A DNA stretch of 64,000 bases, taken from assembly GCF_037392515.1 (NCBI RefSeq), contig NC_090290.1:57982753-58046752 (forward strand), read 5' to 3'. This document shows positions 8,641-54,000 of the stretch, piece after piece. The stretch's first letter is position 1; each line of letters starts with the position of its first letter. The stretch comes from Haliotis asinina (taxonomy: Eukaryota > Mollusca > Gastropoda > Lepetellida > Haliotidae). A program made the position numbers and the translations under genes. Under the pieces are notes generated by a model. It was given only the letters and a program-made list of their open reading frames with translations, did not search any database and was not told the origin of the DNA.

Positions 8641-8879
8641 GAAGTGGCCTTGAAAAAAATGGTTTTGCTTTGAGATTCTGTTAATGGTTTTGTAGCTTGG
8701 GACAACTTGGTATCGGGAAGGCTTATCTTATCTACAAACGACACTGATCACTATACAGAGGTAGATCTACCTTACTGTAGGGCCACATATAGTCATGTGA
8801 TCATTGTGTACGTAACCCATGCTGAATGACAAGCTGGGTTCCCACCTGGGTCCCACTCCGCGGTATCACCATATCCACC
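8641..8879. other. Unique spacer before the 48-bp minisatellite
   Basis: Nothing recognisable; a short non-coding spacer. Confidence 0.5.
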
Positions 8880-10920
8880 CCACCCACCCCATCTTCCACT
8901 CGGCCGTATCACCCCTTGCACACTTTCCAACCCCTCCCCTTCCCATCTTCCACCCTCCCTATCTCCATATCCACCCTTGCACACTTTCCAACCCCTCCCC
9001 TTCCCATCTTCCACCCTCCCTATCTCTCACCCTTCCGTCTTCTACCTCTCCCCATCTTCCACCCTCCCTATCTCTCACCCTTCCATCTTCTACCCCTCCC
9101 CATCTTCCACCCTCCCTATCTCCCACCCTTCCATCTTCTACCTCTCCCCATCTTCCGCCCCTCACCATCTCTCACCCTTCCATCTTCTACCCCTCCCCAT
9201 CTTCTACCCTCCCTACCTCTCACCCTTCCATCTTCTACCCCTCCCCATCTTCCACCCTCCCTATCTCTCACCCTTCCGTCTTCTACCTCTCCCCATCTTC
9301 CACCCTCCCTATCTCTCACCCTTCCGTCTTCTACCTCTCCCCATCTTCCACCCTCCCTATCTCTCACCCTTCCATCTTCTACCCCTCCCCATCTTCCACC
9401 CTCCCTATCTCTCACCCTTCCATCTTCTACCCCTCCCCATCTTCCACCCTCGCTATCTCTCACCCTTCCGTCTTCTACCCCTCCCCATCTTCCACCCTCC
9501 CTATCTCTCACCCTTCCGTCTTCTACCTCTCCCCATCTTCCACCCTCCCTATCTCTCACCCTTCCATCTTCTACCCCTCCCCATCTTCCACCCTCCCTAT
9601 CTCTCACCCTTCCATCTTCTACCCCTCCCCATCTTCTACCCTCCCTACCTCTCACCCTTCCGTCTTCTACCCCTCCCCATCTTCCACCCTCCCTATCTCT
9701 CACCCTTCCGTCTTCTACCTCTCCCCATCTTCCACCCTCCCTATCTCTCACCCTTCCGTCTTCTACCTCTCCCCATCTTCCACCCTCCCTATCTCTCACC
9801 CTTCCATCTTCTACCCCTCCCCATCTTCCACCCTCCCTATCTCCCACCCTTCCATCTTCTACCTCTCCCCATCTTCCACCCTCCCTATCTCCCACCCTTC
9901 CATCTTCTACCCCTCCCCATCTTCCACCCTCCCTATCTCCCACCCTTCCATCTTCTACCCCTCCCCATCTTCTACCCTCCCTACCTTTCACCCTTCCATC
10001 TTCTACCCCTCCCCATCTTCCACCCTCCCTATCTCCCACCCTTCCATCTTCTACCTCTCCCCATCTTCCACCCTCCCTATCTCTCACCCTTCCATCTTCT
10101 ACCCCTCCCCATCTTCCACCCTCCCTATCTCCCACCCTTCCATCTTCTACCCCTCCCCATCTTCTACCCTCCCTACCTTTCACCCTTCCATCTTCTACCT
10201 CTCCCCATCTTCCACCCTCCCTATCTCTCACCCTTCCATCTTCTACCCCTCCCCATCTTCCACCCTCCCTATCTTCCACCCTTCCATCTTCTACCTCTCC
10301 CCATCTTCCACCCTCCCTATCTCTCACCCTTCCATCTTCTACCTCTCCCCCATCTTCCACCCTCCCTATCTCTCACCCTTCCATCTTCTACCCCTCCCCA
10401 TCTTCCACCCTCCCTATCTCCCACCCTTCCATCTTCTACCCCTCCCCATCTTCTACCCTCCCTACCTTTCACCCTTCCATCTTCTACCTCTCCCCATCTT
10501 CCACCCCTCACCATCTCTCACCCTTCCATCTTCTACCTCTCCCCCATCTTCCACCCCTCACCATCTCCCACCCTTCCATCTTCTACCTCTCCCCCATCTT
10601 CCACCCCTCACCATCTCCCACCCTTCCATCTTCTACCTCTCCTCCATCTTCCACCCCTCACCATCTCTCACCCTTCCATCTTCTACCTCTCCCCATCTTC
10701 CACCCCTCACCATCTCTCACCCTTCCATCTTCTACCTCTCCCCCATCTTCCACCCCTCACCATCTCCCACCCTTCCATCTTCTACCTCTCCCCATCTTCC
10801 ACCCCTCACCAACTCTCACCCTTCCATCTTCTACCTCTCCCCCATCTTCCACCCCTCACCATCTCCCACCCTTCCATCTTCTACCTCTCCCCATCTTCCG
10901 CCCCTCACCCCTCCCCACGT
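8880..10920. repeat. 48-bp homopyrimidine minisatellite, about 40 copies
   Basis: The dominant unit is 48 bp and contains 'cacccttccatcttctaccc' and 'ctccccatcttccaccctcc'. Variant positions (cct/cca in 'accctcc', ccg/cca in 'ttccgtc', ctc/ccc) alternate in blocks. From about 10,500 a shorter related unit with 'cacccctcaccatct' takes over. The plus strand is almost purely C/T. The unit is a multiple of three without stops, so several frames stay open for 700 or more codons. The repetitive Pro/Ser/Leu/His peptides differ by frame, which argues against coding. Confidence 0.95.
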
Positions 10921-12059
10921 TTCACATGGCACCTTACTTGCACTCGTCGCACCCGAATTCTGCCCACTCAATTGTCCATCCATCCAAACAACGACACATC
11001 AAAGGACCGCACACCCCTGCAAACACCCTAATGGTTGCGTGGGTAGACTGGCAACCCCAATAAATCAAGATGTCAGTAGAAGTGACGATTCACCCTATTT
11101 TAAGATATTCTACCCGGGATGACGCAGCAGTTCACAGCGTAACAAACCCTATTAAGTCTTCCGATGATTGTGTTAGTCAGCAGGACATTTTCTTGTCATA
11201 TACGACTTTAGGTGCAATGACTTCTTCCCTTCAATACTGACAAAGCACCCGGATACGATCAGATTACAGATAACATTTTTTGTATTAAACGGACACAGTC
11301 AAGAATGCATCTCTAGTTGATGTCGGCCACTGTTGGAACCTGAAATGCGGTGTCGTCAGTACATTTCAGTTCTTACCCTACACATATTTAATAAATCACA
11401 TACTTGTATAATTTCAAAGATGACATAGCAATCATTTTTAATCGACTAACAGGATATATTTTTGTAACAGTCCAAAGCTAGAGAAACTTTACCTCGTTGG
11501 CGGGTGAAGTAATTATATAGTTTATTTGAATGATATCCTTAATGCATGTTATAGAGGAGGAATACTACATGAGTTGGTTTATATAGCAAAACCCTGTTTA
11601 ACCAGTTATTACTTTCCCCGGCAATGGTGCAGGTCACGAATGTACGGATTAACAAGTCTCTCTATCGATTAGCGATGAAACACCTTGTCCCATAGGCCAG
11701 TGAGGTTGATCCCTTGGGTTAATAATGAGTTCAATTAAATATATTTATTTCTATGAGAAACAAACTTTTGCTGGCATTCAAGAGGCTGGTTAGTAAATGG
11801 GACAGCTTACAACGTAATGAAAACAGCTGCAAACTGCGATGTTTCGATGCAAATTCTTACACTGTTGCCCAGCTGAACAACGGCGTTTGAAAAGTCTACC
11901 GAAAATAAAGTTGAGCCTGTCTTCGCATTGCAAATATTTCAGTCTGTCTTTGCGCTGTAAACATTTCATCTTTATGTGTATATTTTCAAGACTGATTAAT
12001 TTGACCTCAGACTGATTTGTTTCCCGTGGGATGATCGCTCCTAAAAAATGTTGTTTCGA
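10921..12059. other. Unique non-coding DNA
   Basis: No gene, SINE or tandem repeat is seen. Open frames are short and unsupported. Confidence 0.5.
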
Positions 12060-15533: not shown

Positions 15534-15584
15534 TGACGTCACCAGAGGTTACTGAGGCTGAATCCGGGTTTCCGTTGATAAAAG
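15534..15584 (+). promoter_or_regulatory. CRE plus TATA-like core promoter (candidate)
   Basis: A perfect cAMP-response element TGACGTCA lies at 15534-15541, and a TATA-like ATAAAAG at 15578-15584. That spacing would put transcription start near 15,610, just ahead of an exon candidate with a consensus donor at 15,661. It is assigned to the Spaetzle-like gene because that exon joins the coding exon in frame. CREB/ATF control would follow if the site is used. Confidence 0.45.
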
Positions 15585-15615
15585 GGCGGTTGACACACGG
15601 ATCAGAGCAGAGTCG

Positions 15616-15660
15616 ATGTCTGATCCAAGACAAGGTAGAATGTCGCTGCACTGTGTCCAG
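15616..15660 (+). CDS. Spaetzle-like gene, candidate first coding exon
   Basis: It reads MSDPRQGRMSLHCVQ and ends at a consensus donor CAG|GTAAGC. It is 45 nt, phase 0, so it joins exon 2 in frame. If used, the second methionine at 15640 gives a more typical signal peptide than the first. The alternative is a non-coding exon with translation starting at 17192. Confidence 0.45.
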
Positions 15661-18600
15661 GTAAGCTACGCTTCTTGTTTGTGCGCATGTTCCTCCTAAC
15701 AGACCATTTGCTAAAGAGATACATTTTGTAAATACTTCCGAAAATACTGCGCTTACCCAATATGGTTTCATATGTTTTCAAATGTTCAAACATGTGCTTA
15801 ATATACAATCATGGTAAGCATATCGTAAGTGTAAAATCACAACAAACGGTCGAGCGGTACATCTTTTTTGCAGTTTGCTTTGGCATAATGTTTACTAATG
15901 TTTTCGTAGCAGTTTATGAAAGATTCTCATCGAACTGTTCCTTACTGGTTTACTGTACAACGTACAAAGTATTGAAGGACACGAAAGAAACAATGGCGAA
16001 AACATATATACCCAAGTTTGATGATGTCAGTAGTGAAACATACAAGAAGTATTTCGTTCGTTAGGAATGGGCATCAGAGCTGGGGTTTGCTCCACGAGAG
16101 TGCTTAGTAACGTTTTGATGACATAAGTGTATTCTTAGGTTTGTGAGTGTACATGTATATTTCCTGTTTACTAACAACTGGTCACGTGCCATGTCAGCTG
16201 ACAGCTTTTACTTGTTCGTACCATTTTCTTTTCGAATTAAGGCATGTGCGTTTCGAAGCAGTGTCTGAAAGCTTCCACAGTCCATAGCATAATATGTAAG
16301 CCAAACATCTCCAACACACTGCTGATTTTATAGACAAGGGTACAGAGTTCCACAGTAGAGGGTCAGAAAACAAAGGATTTCCTTCCAAATCTTTCAAGTT
16401 TATAGCGAGGTACAGAGTGCAAGTTAAATATATGTCAATATCAACTGAATCTTTGGACATATAAGGATACTTGTCACATCCTCTTTGTACAAGTACATAT
16501 TACATCATTTGAGGAGGGTGAGCTTTCGTACCGGCAGTTGGTATCAAGTGTTATTCCCCTCCATTCTATTGTGATAATTCAAATACGGTGGACCCATATT
16601 TCACTTTAGCTTGTATTCTTTCTTTATATAAATATGTACCAAACATTTGCATTTGAGATTCATGAAATATTTCACTCTGAATCTGAAGCCATTAAGTTGC
16701 ACTTAAAATTCATCTCGATCTATTTGGCCCTGAAACGGATTAGCACTTGAATGAAATTTATCGATATGTCCTCGTGAAATCATTTTACGATCCACCACTG
16801 ACAATGATAGACAATGTGCTGATTGCTTTATCCTGCGGCGATACGGACCATGACTTTCTTATTTGCAAGTCTACTGGTATTGTACTCAATATTAAGTCAT
16901 GAAAGAGGGATTTGTTTGGCATTTAGTTAGGAGATATTTTGACTCGTTTTGCAACGCTCAAGAACAAAACACTGAATAGCTCGTTCACCACTGTGTAATC
17001 GGGTCACATATATACTACAGGTATTTGAAATACATATTGAAAATATATGTTTCCTCGTAGCCTGATAGCTCGATCCCGTCATTCAACTTTAACCAAAATT
17101 ATATGTTCCAGATAACGACTAGTTCATGTTATTATCTTTTTTTCATCCCATGCAAGAATAACTTGCTTTGGTGCTGAATAATTTGCTTCAGATGCTCAGC
17201 TTGCTATTTGTTCTCACGTGGATGTCCGTGCCAGCACGTGCCAGCTATGGTCCCTTTCAGCGTTACTATACAAGGTCTTACGGACATTCCGAATACCCTT
17301 CCTACAGAAATTACTACAACCCTTTATCCAACTGTTTGAAGATGGTGTACGGCAAAGACATTTTCTATGACCGTCCTTTTCCCTCCATCTCTCCGATGAA
17401 AACCTTGGACGACTCGAATGCCCAGGACAACATTAAAAGAAGCTACGGCAACATGTTTATGACCCTCGATGAACTGAAAACGTCTTTGGGAATCCCCGCT
17501 TCTACTCACGTCAATTGGGACGGCGGAGTTCACTCCCCGGAAAACAAGCCAGCAACTAGCGCCAGCACCATTGGTTCAGGCACGCTGCAGTTTGACTCTG
17601 ATGTGTGCTGTTCCACGTAAGTAGTGTATGGGGACTGACTGACGTTTTATCAATATCACAGCCATATAGCTACAAGTACATTCGTGATCGGTTTCCGTTT
17701 GTTGTCATTACACCTTTCCCAAAGCTAGCACAGTTGGTTCACACTGTTCCAGATCCGCTCTCAAGTATGTTGTTCTGACGTATGTTGTGCGTTGAATGTT
17801 GTGCATTGTGACCACTGCCACTACTATTATTGATACTGTTGTACTTTGTATTGCTTGTATTTATGTTGTTCCTTCTGTTGCTACAAGTTCTGATACTGCT
17901 ACTACACCACTACCTCCTCCTCCTCCTCCAACTATTACTATTGCTGCTGCAGCTGCTGCTATGCTAAACAAGACATGTGCAAAGCTTGCTACTTTCCTGC
18001 TACATACAAAAACATCATACTCCAAAAGTTTTATTCTTATCGTGGTTACAGTGCTTGAAACAAGTTCCTGATGTCCCTTTAGTGAAAAGGTGTTTTCCTG
18101 GTGTTCCTGGAAAACTTGCTAAATGATGTATACTTCTTACTCCCCAAGAAAGCGACATTTGCTGAGCCTTCTGGTGTAGTATATTCGGCTTTAATGCATT
18201 AAGACGTGTTTCAAATGAAACAAACATTTTCTCATGGTGCTTCTAGGGACGAGTTGTTCTTCGTCAACGAAACTTTGGTAGATGTGGAAAACATCCCAAG
18301 GAAGATAGCTCAGCTGACCAAGATTGGGGCATACCAGTTTATACGCCATGGATTTTGCGCGTGAGTGTCCCCCGTTATTTTAAAGCGGTCATCGAGTGAG
18401 AGAGCATTAACATAATGAAATCTCGACAGGCTGTCTTCTTCTTTTATAAACACACAAAACGTTTGTATAGACACTTGTTCTCAAACAGTAATTGTCAGGA
18501 AGATGGGGTTCCCAGTTAACATGATCCACTCTTTGAAGGTTTCGCCTCGAGATTATCTGTAATGTTTTGACGTTATTCCCCGGTGGCGTCTTTGAGTGGC

Positions 18601-19001
18601 ATTTTGTGGCAAGTGCAGTATAGAACGTTATGGATAACACGTCTTTTATTTCGTTAGTGCTGTGTTTTGTTGCAGTTCCTTGGACCATTTCTGCGTATCA
18701 ACAGGACGAGGGTCTGCATGGAAACGTCGTACTCACGAAATAAATTAATGAAGTTGTCATCCATAGAGTTAGTTCAGTATTAGCCTTTATTGTTCATACA
18801 TTTCCTTGAGGAACTTGTGTACATATAGTCCAAGTGTGCGATGTTTTCTCTTTCAGTGTTAAAGGGGCATGCCCGGGGGAATGTTTACAGCACTACATTA
18901 ATCTACCGCTGGCTGTAGATGAACCTGCGGCCGGTTTGCCAATCACATTTCGGTTTTTCAAGGTACCCGGATATTGTTCCTGTCGTGTAATTGGAATTTG
19001 A
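15616..19001 (+). CDS. Secreted Spaetzle-like cystine-knot protein (spliced, 4 exons)
   Basis: Four exons (15616-15660, 17192-17616, 18247-18360, 18857-19001) join with matching phases to about 242 residues, or 227 if translation starts at the ATG at 17192. A hydrophobic signal peptide (core LSLLFVLTWMSVPARA) is followed by a Tyr-rich pro-region and a dibasic IKR site for furin-type cleavage. The C-terminal region of about 90 residues has seven cysteines: CC, then GFC, GAC, GEC and a closing YCSC. The ending FRFFKVPGYCSCRV and the 'CLQHY' element resemble the Spaetzle fold, in which a secreted cystine-knot dimer activates Toll receptors. NET is a possible N-glycosylation site. IL-17 and neurotrophin-type knots are the alternatives, but their cysteine patterns fit less well. 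AATAAA lies 500 bases downstream. Structure and secretion are well supported; the family is inference. Confidence 0.7.
17192..17616 (+). CDS. Spaetzle-like gene, signal peptide and pro-region exon
   Basis: The acceptor 'tttgcttcag' lies immediately before ATG. The exon encodes the signal sequence, a Tyr/Arg/Ser-rich stretch, the IKR site (residues 81-83 counted from 17192) and the start of the knot (DVCCST). The donor is CAC|GTAAGT at 17617; a reading that ignores splicing stops one codon later. Phase 2 end. Confidence 0.75.
18247..18360 (+). CDS. Spaetzle-like gene, middle knot exon
   Basis: Acceptor 'tgcttctag' and donor GC|GTGAGT; 114 nt, phase 2 on both sides. It encodes DELFFVNETLVDVENIPRKI through AYQFIRHGFC, carrying one knot cysteine and the NET glycosylation motif. 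A symmetric 2-2 exon is consistent with a real coding exon. Confidence 0.75.
18690..18790 (+). mobile_element. Diverged Penelope-type hammerhead end (remnant)
   Basis: GAAACGTCGTACTCACG at 18721 followed by 'aatgaagttgtcatccat' matches the downstream half of the element end at 20,854-20,975. The upstream core (CAGGACGA) departs from the hammerhead consensus CTGANGA and the stem-I partner is not visible, so this copy is unlikely to self-cleave. It sits in intron 3 of the Spaetzle-like gene. Confidence 0.6.
18857..19001 (+). CDS. Spaetzle-like gene, terminal knot exon
   Basis: The acceptor is 'ttctctttcag'. The 145-nt exon completes the phase-2 codon and encodes VKGACPGECLQHYINLPLAV then FRFFKVPGYCSCRVIGI and TGA at 18999-19001. 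It has five cysteines, including the closing CxC typical of cystine-knot ligands. Confidence 0.75.
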
Positions 19002-19501
19002 AACCGACCTTTACCTCTTGCTATGAGTTTCAAAGTTCGCGCTACGAGTGTTATACGTTTTAACCAGTTTTAGCTCTGCGTTGAAATACTAATACCAACG
19101 ACAAATACCTGTATGTACAAATCTTGTGTTCCTTAACTTCATTTGAACAGAATATCACCAGTCGCTATTCATATTTGGGGTTCTCTTGCCCTCTACGCCA
19201 ATAATGCCTTTCTGCACATCCCTCTCTTCCACAACCAACTTTTGAATGACGGAAAGGGTACTAGATACGTGTATCTCTCTCTCTTCTACAACCAACTTAC
19301 CAAAGATCATTGTACAGGAAGAGTGAGAGATACAGATGAACTAGAATTAGTAGCCTAAAATGGTTACAGATGAAAATACTGTATGTCATACCTACAAATA
19401 GGTTTTTACATGGAACTGATATTTAAACAACTGCTTTCTGCACCTTTTGTTCAAAGAACCAGAAACAATGTTTTACCTTTTTAGTGAACCAAAATATGTA
19501 A

Positions 19502-19507
19502 AATAAA
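19502..19507 (+). terminator. Poly(A) signal AATAAA for the Spaetzle-like gene
   Basis: A canonical AATAAA lies 500 bases past the stop codon, giving a normal-length 3' UTR. AT-rich surroundings make chance occurrence possible. Confidence 0.5.
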
Positions 19508-33000: not shown

Positions 33001-36000
33001 TATTGTACGTGCAGTTGTGTGTTTTTGCTACACTTTTGTGTAGGGTTTTTTTGTTAACATAATTTCTAAAATTGTGTGTTTTCCCCTTTTTTGCATGTTA
33101 CAGTGTTTGTGCATGACTCGCTAGTTTTGCACCATTTGTAAAGTCCTGAAATCGGCCAAGGACCCGCACCTCTGGTGTCCCGATTGTGCGTAGCTGGATT
33201 GCACCTTGGATCATTGTTGTCTTCTCTGGGCGCCGTTGTCTACCACCGAGTTCAAGACTTTCTTGGCTGTTAAGAGGAAATGCTCCATGCAGCGTCGGTA
33301 CAAAATGTCTTCTCCAGCTTCATCTTTGGGATCACGGTCCTTGTTGATGGATACTCCAGACCAATGCCCTCCTTCTGTGCAGTTGCTCTCCTAATCCCAC
33401 AATTAAGGCTCCTAAATCAAGGAAGGCAGACTACAAAGTGCACAGCCTAGATTTTGCCCGATACTGGTGCTTTGCTGGATGATTCCTTGACACGCTTATC
33501 GGGTTCACCTTAGTCATTCTATCGGGTGCAAGATTTCAAGTTGGTGGCTATTGATACGGAGCTAAAGCAGATGTTAAAACCTATATCAGTCCTTGCTTCA
33601 GGCACGTTATCGGCGGCGTGGGATTTAACAGAAGACAGTGCTTCGAGGACTGAACATTTTTCTGCACTCTTTCAGAGGCAGGGGAAAATGCTTCATGATT
33701 TACTTGCTCATTTACATGCAGTGTTGGCTATGACTTTGACTTTGCTTCGTTCTGGCTTCTTAGAGCCATGTTCCTGGCAGGAAGAATTTAAATGCCAACT
33801 ACTACAAGCTCCATTTGCATCCAGATTCCTGTTTGACGACAAAATCCTGGACCTGTAAAGGCAGCACACAGAGCTCACCAATACTGAAGTGTCTCTCTAC
33901 ACATTTGATGTCTAGGGGTCCGCCTTTCATAGGAAGCCACTGTCTAGAGGTAGGGGCAAACCCTGTTATGTCCCGAGAAGAGAGGCTATTCAGACTTCCT
34001 ATGCCAGAGGCCGTGCATGAGGAAGAAGTGATGCTGATGGTCAGAGGAGACAGCAGGAGACCCTCCTGTGACATCCGGTAGAGGAAGGGGCAAGCGCCCT
34101 TACTCTGGCCACTGAAGTTTTGGACTCCTATGGCTGGGACCTCCTGCCCCCAGTTGTGCCAGTTCGTCCTACACCTGTAGACGGGAGACTGGGGGTCATC
34201 TGGCCCAATTGGGAAATCCTGGAAGACCCCTTTGTTACCAACATCCTGAGGACCGGATACAAGCTGCATCCGGATACACTGTGTCCCCTTCGCTGACGTC
34301 TACGCCCCAGTCAAGCATGTATTCTCATGTACAACATGCTCTGTTAGTAGAAGACATTCAATTACTGTTAACCAAACAGGCAATAGAGACAGTGCGAGAT
34401 CCCCATCAGTCCTCGGGGTTTTACTCACCCATTTTTCTAGTATCCAAGAAAGACTCAGACAAGATGCGCATGATCCACAACATGGCAGCATTAAACAGAC
34501 TTTATCTTCTGGAACTGCCTCATTTCCGAATGATATCACTGGAACAGGTCCGGGCCAAACTAGTACCAGGAGCGTGGCTAGCCAGTCTGGACCCCCGGGA
34601 TGCTTACCTTCATGTGCCAATTTTCCATCGGCACAGGAAGTTCCTGAGATTTGTGTTCGGTGTTCCTCATTACCAATGGAGGGTCCTCCCATTTGGAATT
34701 TCCATGGCCCCATGGCTTTTTACTCGGATTACGTCCCTGATTTCCCTGTTTCTACATATGAAGGGTATAGATTTCGACCCCTACATAGACGATTCCCTCC
34801 TGAACAACCTCAACCATCAGTTGCTATGCAGACAACTGGACTTAGCTGTTCGTCTTCTACAGCAAAAGGGGTGGTTGATCAATGTTGAGAAGTCACATCT
34901 GGTACCATCACAGGTGTGATGTTTACAGGGGGATTTTTTCTGACACACTCCAATCTCGTCAGAATCCCTCAAGGTCAGTGGTCGAAGATTCTCAAGTTTG
35001 CAAGTTGAGGCCTTGCTCATCCCTTGACCCTTCGGGAGTGGCAGTCCCTGCTAGGTCTTCTCACTTCAGCCCAAGACTTACTACGCAGGGTACGTTTGAT
35101 GCTCTGGCAGGTGCAATGGCTTCTACTGCCTCACATTCAAGTGGACAACTTGCAGGTCAGAATCCTTCTGCCTCTGCATCTCCATCCTTATCTCCACTGG
35201 TGGACGGTTGAGTCGAATGTTTGTGTAGGAGTCTCTTTGAGTGACTGTCCGCATGACCATGAGTTATTCGTCAATGCATCTCTTCAAGGCTGGGGTGCCC
35301 ATCTCAGTGGTCAGACCACCTCAGGGCTGTGGTCAGGCATCGAACGAGACTGGCATATAAACAACCTAGAATTCCATGCAGTGATTCTAGCGGTTGAACA
35401 TTAGACTTCCCTTCTGAGGAATTCCACACTGTTGATTTCATCCGACAGTTCCATGGTGGTATGGATGATTCTCAATCATCTCCCTCACCCTTCAGCTTAT
35501 AATCTACATGAGATTAGAGTGTTAGCTTCCACCATGGCTTTACACAGGAATTGTACTGTCCCCGCAATAATGGAAAGCGGCTTTTGGAAGTCGACCACAG
35601 TCTTTGCCAGTCATTACCTGAGGGATTTGGCTGTAGAAGATGTGGAGGGTCTGCAGTCCTTTGGTCCGTTGGTCGTTGCCCAGCAACTTACTCGGCCAGC
35701 CACCCATTAGGTAATTATTGCTTCCTAGTGTTGGTCTTGTGGATAACTTTCACCTCTGAGGTGTCTTCATTGTCCTTGGGGTTCCTTGAGTTACTTGCTG
35801 TCTCATATTTCAGGATGATCCTGAGACTGCTTGTAACTTATTATGGATCAGCATGTGGACGAAGTTTTCTGGGGATGGTCCTTTTTTGGAGCCCGACACC
35901 ACCATCCATCTGTCAAATCCATATGCATAAGACCTTTGGTAAGGTAAGTTAAAATTATTTTTATTTTTATATATTTTATATATTTTAGATATTTAGATAC

Positions 36001-48000: not shown

Positions 48001-51000
48001 TGTTGGGCTTCGGAGGACCAACCGAGGAGACAAGCTGAAGCTTGGAGAAATGGGTAACTGGAACAAGAGACAGATAATAATCCTGTGTAAAGTCAAACTC
48101 TGAAAGAAATCAGCAAATGAACCAAGTTCACCAGAATCATACACTTCCTTTAAAAGCCCAAGGTAAGAAAACATAATTACCTACTGTGTAGAAGGTCGGG
48201 TGAGTTGTTGGGCCACCACCAACGGGACTGGAAAACCTCCACATCTACAACTGCTACATCCCAATCTAGTTGCTTGCACCGTGGAGGACCGCCAAAAACA
48301 TCCCTCCATAATTGACGGTACAGAGCAGTTTCTGTGCAGAGCCATGGTGGATGCTAAGGCCCAAATCTCATGCAGGTTGCTGGCTGACAGGTGCGTTAAG
48401 TGTTTCGCATCGTAGGCTGCCAAAATAGTCGCACGTAACCATAACACCACGGTTTTTCTGGACACTTCTCCTTTCATCGATGAAGAAAACGGGATGAAAA
48501 GTCTTTTACGAGTCCATCCTCTCAGAGGTGTACAATTTCAATGCCTGCACTGGACAAGGAAGCAGCTCGTCAGAGTCCTGGGGGCCTAGAATGGATGACA
48601 ACGGATAGAGAATAATCTGTCTGGTTGTCCAGGGAGCTGGTTCTTGGCGACGAAATCCCATAGTAGACCTAAACAAACCTGTCCATGATGAGCTTGTTCA
48701 AACTTCACACGGGTTACATCCAGAGCGTGGATCTCACTGACCCTTTCCGCAGTGGCTAACGCCAACAGGAAAACTGTCTTCCTCGAAAGATTCTCAAATG
48801 AAGTCTTCTCCAAAGGTTCATAAGGAGGGCCATGGAGATGATCTAAAACAAAATTCAGATCCCAAGCAGGAGGACAAACTTTTGATCCCCCAGCTTAAAT
48901 GCCTTCAACATGGCAAGGCGATCCGGCACCTTGGTCACCTGCCGGTCACACTTGACTGCTAAGACGGAATTAAGAGCTGATATGTATGTTGCAGTGGTAC
49001 TGCCTCGAAGATGTTTGGACCTTCTCAAGTAGAGGAAAAATTCCGCAAAAAACTGAGGAGATACTGTTGAAGGATTCTGGTTTCTGAGTGCACAAAACTT
49101 CTCAAAAGATGTCCACTTGTTATCATAAAGAGATCTACTAGATACCTGGTGCGCCAGAGCAACAAGTTTTGCCACCTGAGTAGAGTAGCCCTTAGCTCTC
49201 AAGGCTTTCTGCAGATGGTCCAAACGCGTAGAAGAAACCTCGCCGGATTGGGATGCGGAAGATGCCTGTGCTGATGATGTAGGAGCTGTAGCCAATCTGG
49301 TAGTGGTAGTGGGTTGGTGAACCACATTCTGGCCAGCCACCAGGGCGCGACCAAAAGCAGATGAATCTGGCAGGTCTGCTTGATCTTGACCACCACCGCT
49401 GGTAGAAAAACCGGTGGAGGGAATGCAAAGGCATCCAGCCCCTCCCACGACATGGACATGGCGTAGATCGCTCAGGCCTGTGGATCCAGTACGGGAGACA
49501 CGTACAAGGGAAGCTGACTGTTGAGAGGCCGGCCATGTTGTTGACACAGAAAACGGAAAACCTCTGGATACAGCATCCACTCTGTTTGCGATGGTCTGCC
49601 TGGTCTGGAGAGGGCATCTGCCAGTACATTCCTGGCGAACTTGAATTCGAATGTAGCTGTCGTTGAGAATGTTGGACAGCTGAAACATCTGTCCAACAGC
49701 TGCTTGGATCTTGTGGTGCCTTGATTCCGAATCACCCAGATGAGATGAGCGCCCCAACCTTGAAGGGAGGCCTCGACAAAAAGTTTGTGGTCGTGTTTCA
49801 AGTCTGTCAAGGAGATGTCAACATAAACGTTCAACTCTCGAGTCCACCATTGAAGATACTGGTGAAGATGGTCCGGTATAGGGAACCTGACACGTAGATT
49901 GTCAGCCTGTATGTGAGGGAGGAGAAAGCGCTGCAATGGTCGAAGCATCAGATGACCTCTTAGCGCCATGTCCTGAGCGGATGTGAGAAGGCCTAGCAGG
50001 GACTGCCACTCTGTTTGCACTCTGTGTTTGCGTAGTCACTGAAGATCAAGATGATTGAGGAGACAGTCATCTATGTATGGGTCGAAATCCGGAGATGGAG
50101 AAACCAGGTGATGGGCGTTGTGATATGGGTGAATAGCCATGGGGCGGTTGAAAATGTCAAACGTGGGTACCTTCCTTTGGTAGTGACGGTTGTTGAATAC
50201 AAAGCGCAGGAACTTCCTGTGCGGCCGGTAAATTAGAACATGTAGATAGGTGTCCTGCAGGTCTAAACTGGCTAGCCAAGACCTGGGGCCGAGCTTGGCA
50301 TGAAGTTGTCCCAAGGAGACCATGTTGAATGTTATGTTGTTGTGAATAACTCTCATTTTCCCAGAATCCTTCTTGGGCACGAGGAAGATGGGTGAGTAGC
50401 ACCCCGGGGACTGCTGGAGTCTCGCACTGTCTCTAGAGCATTGTTGTCTAGTAGGGTCTGAATGCTGTCGGCTAAGAGCACGCTTTGGGCTGGAGAGTAT
50501 ACACATGACTGGGGCGTCATTGTCAGAGGCGGTGACACGGTAATGGGGAGCTTGTAACCAGTCCGAAGTATGTTTGTACAAATGGATCCCCTAGAAAAAT
50601 CCAGTTTCTCCAGAAGATCCCTAGTCTCCCGTCTACAGGAGTGGGTCGAACTGGGAGGGAGGGAGGTCCCAGTCGCACAAGACCAAATCTTCGAGCTGAG
50701 TAGGGGCGCTTGCCTCTACCCCTGCTCGGTGTGGTAGGAGGCTCCCGTGTGCGCTCAGGTGCACGGCACTGTCCATCATTGTCGGCCCTACCACGGCCGT
50801 GTCCTCTGCCGAACGCTGAACATAGTGATTCTCGTCTTGGGATGTAACAATGCTTCCCTCTTCCTCTTAACGGCCATGAAAAGCAGATCCTAGAGCTTCG
50901 AAAGTTGAAAGCGACACTTCTGTGTTAGTCAACTCCGCGTGCTGTCTATATACCTCAGGAATCATGTCGTTGAAGAGATAACGTGATGAAAAAGGCGCCC

Positions 51001-54000
51001 TAAATAGTTTGCGTTTAAATTCTTCCTGCCAATTACAGGGGTTGAGAATGCCGAACTGCCGTAGTCATAGCTAATGCTGCTCTCAGGTGTGCCAACAAGT
51101 TGTTTAATACTTTTCCCTGCTACTGGAACAGCATCGAGAGTTGATCTGCCCTAGAGGCATTGTCTTCAGTGAGGTCCCAGGCGGCTACCGACGTAGCCGA
51201 AGCTAAAGTTGAGATGGGTTTAAGCATACGCTTTAACTCCGAGTCAATGACCAACATCTTGGAGTCATGGACTCTGTATCAATTCTGTGGAGAACTAGCC
51301 AGGCGTTGAAGGGAATCGTCATGAGCTGTCCCGTTATTGGCGAAATCCAAGCTGTGAATCTTATAGTCGCCTTTCTTGGACTTCGGTGCCTTGATTATGG
51401 AAGAGAGAGAGAGCATCAAGAGAATCAGTCGCATCTGCCACCAACAGATGCAGAGGAATCTGGTGATTCTGGTGAAAAGCGAATAGCTGTCTGATCATCC
51501 GTGCCAGGAGACAGAGAGGGGCATTCTGGGAGCCTATCGGCAATCCAGTCATGCACCGCAGACAGAGGTAGGTAGGTGCCCCCGTCATCTGAGTCCTCAG
51601 GTGCATCCTCGTTGTAATAAGATGAGAAAAACCTTTCCTCCATGTTGTCCCATGATACTGTATGGCTCTGATGTCAATGGCCAGCTGCAGAAGTCGACAT
51701 CCGAGGCTCCACACCAGAACCAAGACGAGCGTCAGGGGAATGCAACTTGAGACACTGTGGCGAATGGCAAGATGGTGGTGTCCGGGAGCATGAACAGCCT
51801 AAGCGTTTGGAGTAAGCCGGCGATCTGGAACGCCTATCCTTGTCCGACGATTGACGAGGAGAAACCGATCTGGATTTTGAATGACTACGACAGCGACGAG
51901 GGCTTCTGAAGTGTCAGCGGGACTTGCGCTTGGGAATTCTGTAAGACCCCATAGGTGCCGGTATAGGTGTAGGCACTGACAATGGAGCGGTGGATGGACA
52001 TGACGATGGCGTTGGTGTCAGAACAGGCATTGCTGCTGTAGAAAAAATAGTGTCCAAAGGTGCAGTCACAGGTGTCGGCGTTGGCGTTGGAAGACTAGAT
52101 GACAGAGTAGAGAGCAACGCCGGTGATGGCGCTGGATCAGCGCTCAGTTGCAAAAGAGTTCTCAAAAGCTTCCGCACCTCAGGGTGAGAGAGAGCGTCCG
52201 GGTGGGAGAGATCGACTGAAGAATTCGAGGAGCGCTGTGGTAAAGGTGTCGACTCTGTAGTAGGTAGAGGAAGCGTGGACGGAGGCGCTTGTCTGGAGTC
52301 CAGGCGAGCGATGACCATGATCCCAGAGATGAAACAGGGGAAGATGTTTTCCTTTTTCTCTGAGTGAATCGTTTCCTTTTTGCAGACAGATAGGCTTGAA
52401 TTCCTGAATATGGAGAGACGAACAATGATGGCATCGATCATCAAAAGTACAATTAACAGTAGCACAGTCTGGACACCAGGGGTGGGGATCCTTTGGAGAC
52501 TTCTGCACCTTGCAGAGTGTGCAAATTTTAACTGCCAGGTCATAACAAAGCTGCAACGCGCAGCAAAACCAACAAACAAATAACTTAAATGAAAGAATGC
52601 CCTAAGGGAATTTGGATTAAATGAAAAAAAACCCTACAGCAGAAAATGGAGTACCACCGTGACAAGACAGCAGAGAGTACACAACCACAATGACTGCCCC
52701 CACTGAATTACGCAGAGTGTAAAAAACTAGCAACAAATGGATATTTAACCAAACTTATGTGCACAACAACACACACTGGTAAAGAAGACGGACTGGGGTG
52801 CAACATTACCAAGCTGTGCAATGGAAAATGGACAAACAACAAGGAAAACTAGGAGATATCTGTCGAAAGGTACGAGGTAGCCAGGTAAGTGAAGATAAAT
52901 TACTGTAAGTTTCACCACCAATAAGGGAAAAACCATATCTACCAGAGCAAGAAACAACTTAAATACAATGCAAGTAGTAAAATAGCGTAATCAAACAAAA
53001 ATCACGTCTGACAGGTAGGATGCTCGAAGTAAAAGTGAAGTTTTGGGATTGTTTGTGCATGCGCGGATAGGGAGATCACGTCACTTCTGTTCCTATAAAC
53101 TCGTCGATACATGAGGTAGCCATTCAGTAGAATGGCGTAGCAACAACTGTTTGATCTCTTTTAAGCGATGCTTGAGGTAATTTGCATAAGCCCTATGGTA
53201 AGGTAAGTTAAAAATTAAAATTTTATTTAGTGGCTCATTTTGGATCTCATCAGTGTCTTGCTGAGAAGTTTTTAACTTTGACCTACTTGTGTCGACAAAA
53301 AGGTGGGATTCTATTTTTCATCCAAAGTCATTCATTTTACTTTGTCTTAGTACATGTACTAAGATTACTTTGCTGAGTGGACCTGGTTCCATGTCCTCTT
53401 AGCACTAATACTGTCGTTAAATATCCTGAAGATAAATTTGTCAAATTCTGATTAGTCAATAGCTAAAGCATATAAAACCATGTATGTGGATTTGCCAGGG
53501 TGTATGAACTATGCACCTCATCAAATCTGTCACGTTAGACACTACACAGGTTGTGCAAATAACCTTGACCTTAGGTTAGATGTGGCTGCTGACTGCATAG
53601 AGTTGGTGTAGACAATTATTAGCATAAACAGAACAATAAATTGTTGCCATAGTTTCTTTATATATGTGTGTCAATAAATATTTCCCAAAAATAAAATGTT
53701 TCTGTATATTCAGTCATTATTGTCATATATAACTAAGGCATGGAACTGGAGTTCTATGGCTAAGGCATCATGAGTCATCTCCCTTTATGACCGTTCCGGA
53801 AATACCATGGTGAAACATTTTGCATCTCTTTATGCCGAAGGTTAGATGTTGTTTTTATGATAAACTAAATTTAAAAATCTTAAGGATAACAGAGGTGCAG
53901 TCGAAGGAAATACAGAATTTACAAGGGTCTTACAGTCTCATACACCCTTTATAAATACTGTGTAACTAATAGCATTTGTCTTAAAACTGGAGAGTTACGA

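Follow-up and report, generated by a model that had tools for sequence, protein, structure and literature searches.

A putative secreted ligand gene with a Spaetzle-like cystine knot, split over short exons in a mollusc

Introduction

Spaetzle and the neurotrophins (the NGF family, PF00243) belong to one superfamily of cystine-knot proteins. The sequences of fly Spaetzle C-106 (PDB 3e07) and mosquito Spaetzle AAEL013433 (PDB 7b1c) were compared with a gene that we describe here from the mollusc Haliotis asinina. The gene lies in a 64,000-nucleotide stretch of DNA that was analysed as a whole (the window; C11:57982753-58046752), and it probably encodes a secreted ligand precursor with a Spaetzle-like cystine knot. 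An earlier, sequence-only reading of the window had proposed such a gene at positions 15534..19507.

The published record of such ligands beyond arthropods is short. A survey from 2009, in the passages available, recovered no Spz genes from lophotrochozoans and called a verdict of absence premature (PMC2772990). The available text of a 2020 survey of ecdysozoans, which describes its own search as strict, places spaetzle in panarthropods only and proposes that Spaetzle-driven activation originated there (PMC7056985). Outside arthropods, an excerpt from a mussel paper of 2020 states, only a homologue from the clam Paphia undulata had been described, with a part in Toll signalling not demonstrated (PMC7773633; also PMC8637286). 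This clam gene (Yu et al. 2015) is reported in the same excerpts to respond to bacteria (PMC7773633, PMC8637286). The sequence-only reading had called Spaetzle-type ligands much less described in molluscs, which agrees with a literature that, in the parts available, names this single clam gene (PMC7773633, PMC8637286). Our search of the open-access literature, which excluded preprints and could not handle accented spellings, found, among the titles and abstract openings listed, no report of a gastropod spaetzle gene; one may still be in print.

Results

Our analysis confirmed, at the level of sequence, a gene whose joined exons encode a secreted-type precursor. Exons 2 (17192..17616), 3 (18247..18360) and 4 (18857..19001), all on the forward strand, join in phase as had been claimed: their borders follow the GT-AG consensus, the junctions fall in phases 2 and 2, and the joined frame is free of internal stops. 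Exon 2, with acceptor TTTGCTTCAG and donor GTAAGT, is the longest at 425 nucleotides, or about 142 codons, matching the earlier estimate of about 140. It opens with an ATG directly at the acceptor, encodes a hydrophobic leader and a pro-region with a KR pair, and stops just past the CC that contains Cys I of the knot. Exon 3 (borders CTTCTAG and GTGAGT) encodes the N-glycosylation motif NET, the middle of the knot and Cys II. Exon 4 (acceptor CTCTTTCAG) encodes Cys III to Cys VI, from CPGEC to YCSCRVIGI, and closes with the stop codon TGA.

Counted from the ATG at 15640, which lies in a further exon upstream, the model protein has 234 residues, and 227 when counted from exon 2 alone. The hydrophobic leader at its N terminus, MLSLLFVLTWMSVPARA, was read by eye, as was that of the sister gene described below. 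The precursor carries one N-glycosylation motif and a single KR pair in the pro-region (residues 89-90 of the 234-residue model). Seven knot cysteines stand at residues 146, 147, 186, 192, 196, 227 and 229 of the same model, giving a spacing of CC-38-C-5-C-3-C-30-C-1-C across the last 90 residues. The count and the C terminus, YCSCRVIGI*, bear out the seven-cysteine pattern ending in YCSCRV that had first been noticed.

A second gene of the same design was found on the same contig. With exon 4 as query, a search of the genome (1.14 Gb in 159 contigs) returned, besides the exon itself, only C11:44984000-44984128 on the minus strand (E value 0.11; two candidates scored). The reciprocal query with this sister exon 4 returned the window gene at E 0.06, together with a place on C13 (L007) at E 0.19. 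An exon-2-like stretch lies upstream of the sister exon 4 (E 0.48 within 20 kb), and the sister exon 3 was picked among open GT-AG stretches for having a fitting phase, a GTAAGT donor and a cysteine. The resulting sister gene (L003; C11:44983991-44986759, minus strand), modelled from protein likeness, splice sites and phase, has three exons and encodes 193 residues. Its layout is that of the window gene, with an ATG right after the acceptor, both junctions in phase 2, and a CC just ahead of the first of them. Its knot has the same cysteine order, with C-5-C-3-C and then VPGYCSC before the stop, and the knot region holds one additional cysteine. Because layout, phases and cysteine order all recur in the sister gene, we conclude that the window gene is more than chance.

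The two proteins share 41 identities in 147 aligned columns (28%; E 4e-12 in a two-sequence comparison), and this likeness comes mostly from exon 4. With exon 4 removed, since it was the exon that found the pair, the score was reached by 13 of 2,000 shuffles. The exon 2 pair alone was matched by 8 of 2,000 shuffles and the exon 3 pair alone by 561 of 2,000, the latter not significant. When exon 2 of either gene was used as a whole-genome query, the other gene was not listed. At E 0.01 the two gene bodies are not alike in nucleotides, and therefore the exons agree solely as protein; additionally, the 20-kb sister region has 51 nucleotide matches in the window, all of them outside 15534-19507. 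Exons that are alike as protein, between introns that are unlike, form the pattern expected of coding genes that arose by an old duplication.

Other places returned by these searches were set aside as relatives. L007 (C13:31564778-31564879, minus strand; E 0.19) resembles 35 residues of the sister exon 4 at about 40%, lacks the C-x3-C and the final C-x-C, and has two other cysteines; it may be chance or a remnant. L009 (E 9.4) and L012 (E 3.3) were likewise rejected.

Judged from its sequence, the closest named family found for the window protein is Spaetzle (PF16077). In Pfam, which lists matches up to E 10 through filters that drop most of those above 0.1, the full protein matched Spaetzle alone (E 0.026, 15.6 bits). 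For the knot by itself Spaetzle was the better of two matches (E 0.0026, 18.7 bits; the other was tRNA-synt_1c_C2 at E 0.22), and the last 51 residues again matched only Spaetzle (E 0.0027). Ten shuffles with the cysteines held in place gave no Spaetzle match, and for two of them the match was to an unrelated family (E 0.029 and 0.13). As shuffles can reach E 0.029, the full-length value alone means little, and it is the knot value, ten times lower, that carries the point.

Direct comparison with fly Spaetzle gave a score of 60, whereas shuffles averaged 25 and 0 of 2,000 came that high; with the cysteines masked in both proteins the score was 37 against a mean of 22, reached by 9 of 2,000. 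The final 34 knot residues lie on fly Spaetzle without a gap (CLQHY...FFKVPGYCSC versus CKQHY...SFKIPSCCKC). Likeness of the window protein to mosquito Spaetzle was not significant (170 of 2,000 shuffles), nor was that of the sister protein to Spaetzle of fly (248 of 2,000) or mosquito (1,171 of 2,000). A profile-profile comparison gave Spaetzle a P of 0.053 and the insect hormone PTTH one of 0.5. Among solved structures, phmmer and a profile search found no relative, and the fly Spaetzle protein searched against the genome returned nothing useful. The Spaetzle family profile, run against the whole genome, gave nothing at E 0.001, and the window gene was absent from its list, for which four candidates were scored. 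One place returned for this profile (L010; C11:55130192-55130425; E 0.96, 19.8 bits) contains two internal stops and ends in FILPNCCKC, and was rejected as either a chance-level match or a decayed one.

Six of the knot cysteines stand in Spaetzle order, with C-x-C last and a seventh in addition; the Cys III-IV gap and the place of the seventh differ. Cys I and II are 38 residues apart in the window protein and 36 in both fly and mosquito Spaetzle, and Cys II and III are 5 apart, compared with 6 in the fly and 8 in the mosquito. The Cys IV-V spacing is 30 in the window protein and the fly and 29 in the mosquito, and the Cys V-VI spacing is 1 in all three. In contrast, the Cys III-IV loop has only 3 residues and is shortened relative to Spaetzle, and the spare cysteine is next to Cys I, whereas in Spaetzle it is next to Cys V. 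Common to the window gene and Spaetzle are a pro-protein of apparently secreted type, seven knot cysteines and F-x-(V/I)-P ahead of the final C-x-C, and the window gene and fly Spaetzle also have C-x-QHY after Cys IV in common. The likeness lies mainly in the last third of the window knot.

Exon 4 alone was predicted by AlphaFold2 as a long two-strand hairpin (predicted local distance difference test, 69.4; predicted template modelling score, 0.36), for which Foldseek and re-alignment gave nothing useful. Both CPGEC, in the window gene, and CFGNC fit what we take to be the CxGxC motif of an eight-membered ring of the TGF-beta or glycoprotein hormone type. We set this ring aside as the poorer fit, because the window gene would then lack a cysteine between the ring and the final C-x-C for the I-IV bond. 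The Spaetzle cysteine order was kept instead because it would use six of the seven cysteines.

Upstream of exon 2, a short 5' exon (15605..15660, forward strand, donor GTAAGC) holds in-frame ATGs (MSDPRQGRMSLHCVQ) at positions 15616 and 15640 and joins exon 2 in phase 0. Its start is a guess taken from the TATA-like box GATAAAAGG alone (15577..15585, forward strand), a possible promoter, and the exon may be partly or wholly 5' untranslated region. This box and an AATAAA polyadenylation signal (19502..19507, forward strand), both read from the sequence, agree with the gene limits first proposed. The G+C content is 0.465-0.487 in exons 2-4 compared with 0.368-0.403 in the three introns, and reaches 0.557 at third codon positions. 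By length the longest frame is unremarkable, as its 152 codons were reached in 92 of 2,000 simulated stretches.

The genome encodes a large set of predicted Toll-type receptors. At least 124 TIR matches were counted when 150 of the 171 candidates had been scored. Of these, 91 have an open frame that runs to 600 residues or more, and one TIR locus that we examined (L014) has leucine-rich-repeat as well as TIR domains. Many of the matches are clustered, for example at C6:43.5-43.7 Mb and C16:22.7-22.8 Mb.

Other knot-type sequences were seen elsewhere in the genome. At C7:62440979-62441128 (L013) lies a decayed stretch that resembles the C terminus of PTTH/Trunk; two stops interrupt it, and across 50 residues it is 36% identical to a Bombyx PTTH sequence that we assume to be correct. 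On C6, a neurotrophin-like C-terminal exon (L018; C6:69514988-69515110, minus strand) scores 25.7 bits against the NGF profile (E 0.0092; cut-off 27), ends in SSCNCAI and has a simple repeat, read as HTHTHT, immediately before it. A further NGF profile match (L019) has E 0.72.

The genome also contains two tandem haemocyanin genes (C2:96255865-96271559 and C2:96301794-96318095), each with eight beta-sandwich units, sixteen in total. Tandem groups of eight units are the molluscan haemocyanin arrangement, and two such genes recall gastropods. Within the window, long open frames on both strands at 33514-35949 and 48184-52633 resemble pieces of retrotransposon proteins by eye. Those at 8816-11119 are made of repeats, run in several registers, are rich in P, S, T and L, and are not gene-like. 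A tRNA scan gave nothing useful.

Discussion

We consider it probable that the window gene encodes a secreted ligand precursor with a Spaetzle-like cystine knot, and this ligand would act as Spaetzle does. The precursor would consist of a leader, a pro-region and, at the C terminus, a domain of some 90 residues; this domain most likely folds as a cystine knot of the NGF/Spaetzle type, with presumed disulfides I-IV, II-V and III-VI. In the N-terminal CC, the cysteine left over may link two chains. A protease would free the knot domain from the pro-region; because the sister gene does not keep the KR, furin and a serine protease are equally likely candidates. The resulting dimer may bind a Toll-family receptor with leucine-rich repeats, a link that we infer, and would then have a Spaetzle-like role in immunity or development.

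Several results weigh against this interpretation. The Spaetzle match reaches at most 18.7 bits, short of the curated Pfam cut-off of 27, and the sister gene matches no Pfam family. Additionally, the KR pair lies about 56 residues ahead of the first knot cysteine and has no conserved counterpart in the sister gene. The sequence-only reading is thus borne out in part: the evidence supports a gene for a secreted ligand with a knot of the Spaetzle/NGF kind, for which Spaetzle is the nearest named family. The leader (by eye), the pro-region and the dibasic pair that had been described are all present, with the pair as a possible cleavage site.

A different cystine-knot hormone, of the Trunk/PTTH (Noggin) group and acting through a Torso-type receptor kinase, is in our view unlikely. 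A Bombyx PTTH sequence that we assume to be correct has the cysteine order of the window gene (a cysteine pair, C, C, C, CxC), and a short Cys III-IV gap would also suit this group. Precursors of this group occur in molluscs and have a signal peptide and a cysteine-rich C terminus. The available parts of two papers report trunk from molluscs (PMC6660194) and four PTTH/Trunk precursors from the oyster (PMC8398477). However, Pfam gives this PTTH sequence a Noggin match below the cut-off (E 0.0086), whereas for the window knot it lists Spaetzle but no Noggin. The score of the window protein against the PTTH sequence was reached by 872 of 1,000 shuffles, in a comparison that covered PTTH, and the profile-profile comparison described above gave PTTH the poorer value. 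By hand count the Cys I-II gap is 22 in PTTH compared with 38 here, and the PTTH sequence as query finds the stop-broken place on C7 (E 0.028), not the window gene. There is a slim chance that both genes belong to a secreted, cystine-knot-like family private to molluscs, in which the Spaetzle match reflects C-terminal convergence and no true kinship. The sister gene without Spaetzle likeness, family scores that all fall below cut-off and the non-significant likeness to mosquito Spaetzle would suit such a family, but the gapless match of 34 residues, the Cys I-II and IV-V spacings and the failure of all ten shuffles to match Spaetzle argue for kinship.

We regard it as improbable that the gene is a molluscan neurotrophin (NGF/BDNF type, a Trk ligand) or belongs elsewhere among the cystine-knot families, for instance to IL-17 (presumably PF06083), even though Spaetzle and neurotrophins have a common fold. 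The sequence-only reading had named Spaetzle, IL-17 and NGF for a profile search; Spaetzle was matched, under its cut-off, but neither NGF nor IL-17 was listed at E 10 within the filters given above, and the window protein has no NGF profile match. A neurotrophin-like knot is reported from Lottia in the available text of one survey (PMC2772990), but in the present genome a separate neurotrophin-like exon is found on C6, and the window gene is thus unlikely to be the neurotrophin. That the locus does not work as a gene, its open frames being joined by chance or left by a pseudogene, is very improbable. The ordinary length of its longest frame would fit this view, but the layout, phases and cysteine order that recur in the sister gene, a joined frame free of stops, and the G+C contents of exons and third codon positions speak against it.

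If the window gene is a Spaetzle-like ligand gene, it bears on whether Toll receptors outside arthropods answer a protein made by the host or bind microbes directly. The window and sister genes are diverged, are split by introns and score below the family cut-off, and so illustrate one way in which such ligands may escape notice. They are also exact candidates to pair with the many Toll-type receptors encoded here (at least 124 TIR matches). More tentatively, and with considerable doubt, the two genes may represent an old molluscan branch of the Spaetzle type, with a short knot loop and the dimer cysteine moved to the N-terminal CC, which provides host ligands for part of a greatly enlarged Toll set. 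If this is true, ligand-driven Toll signalling would date back to the protostome common ancestor instead of being confined to panarthropods.

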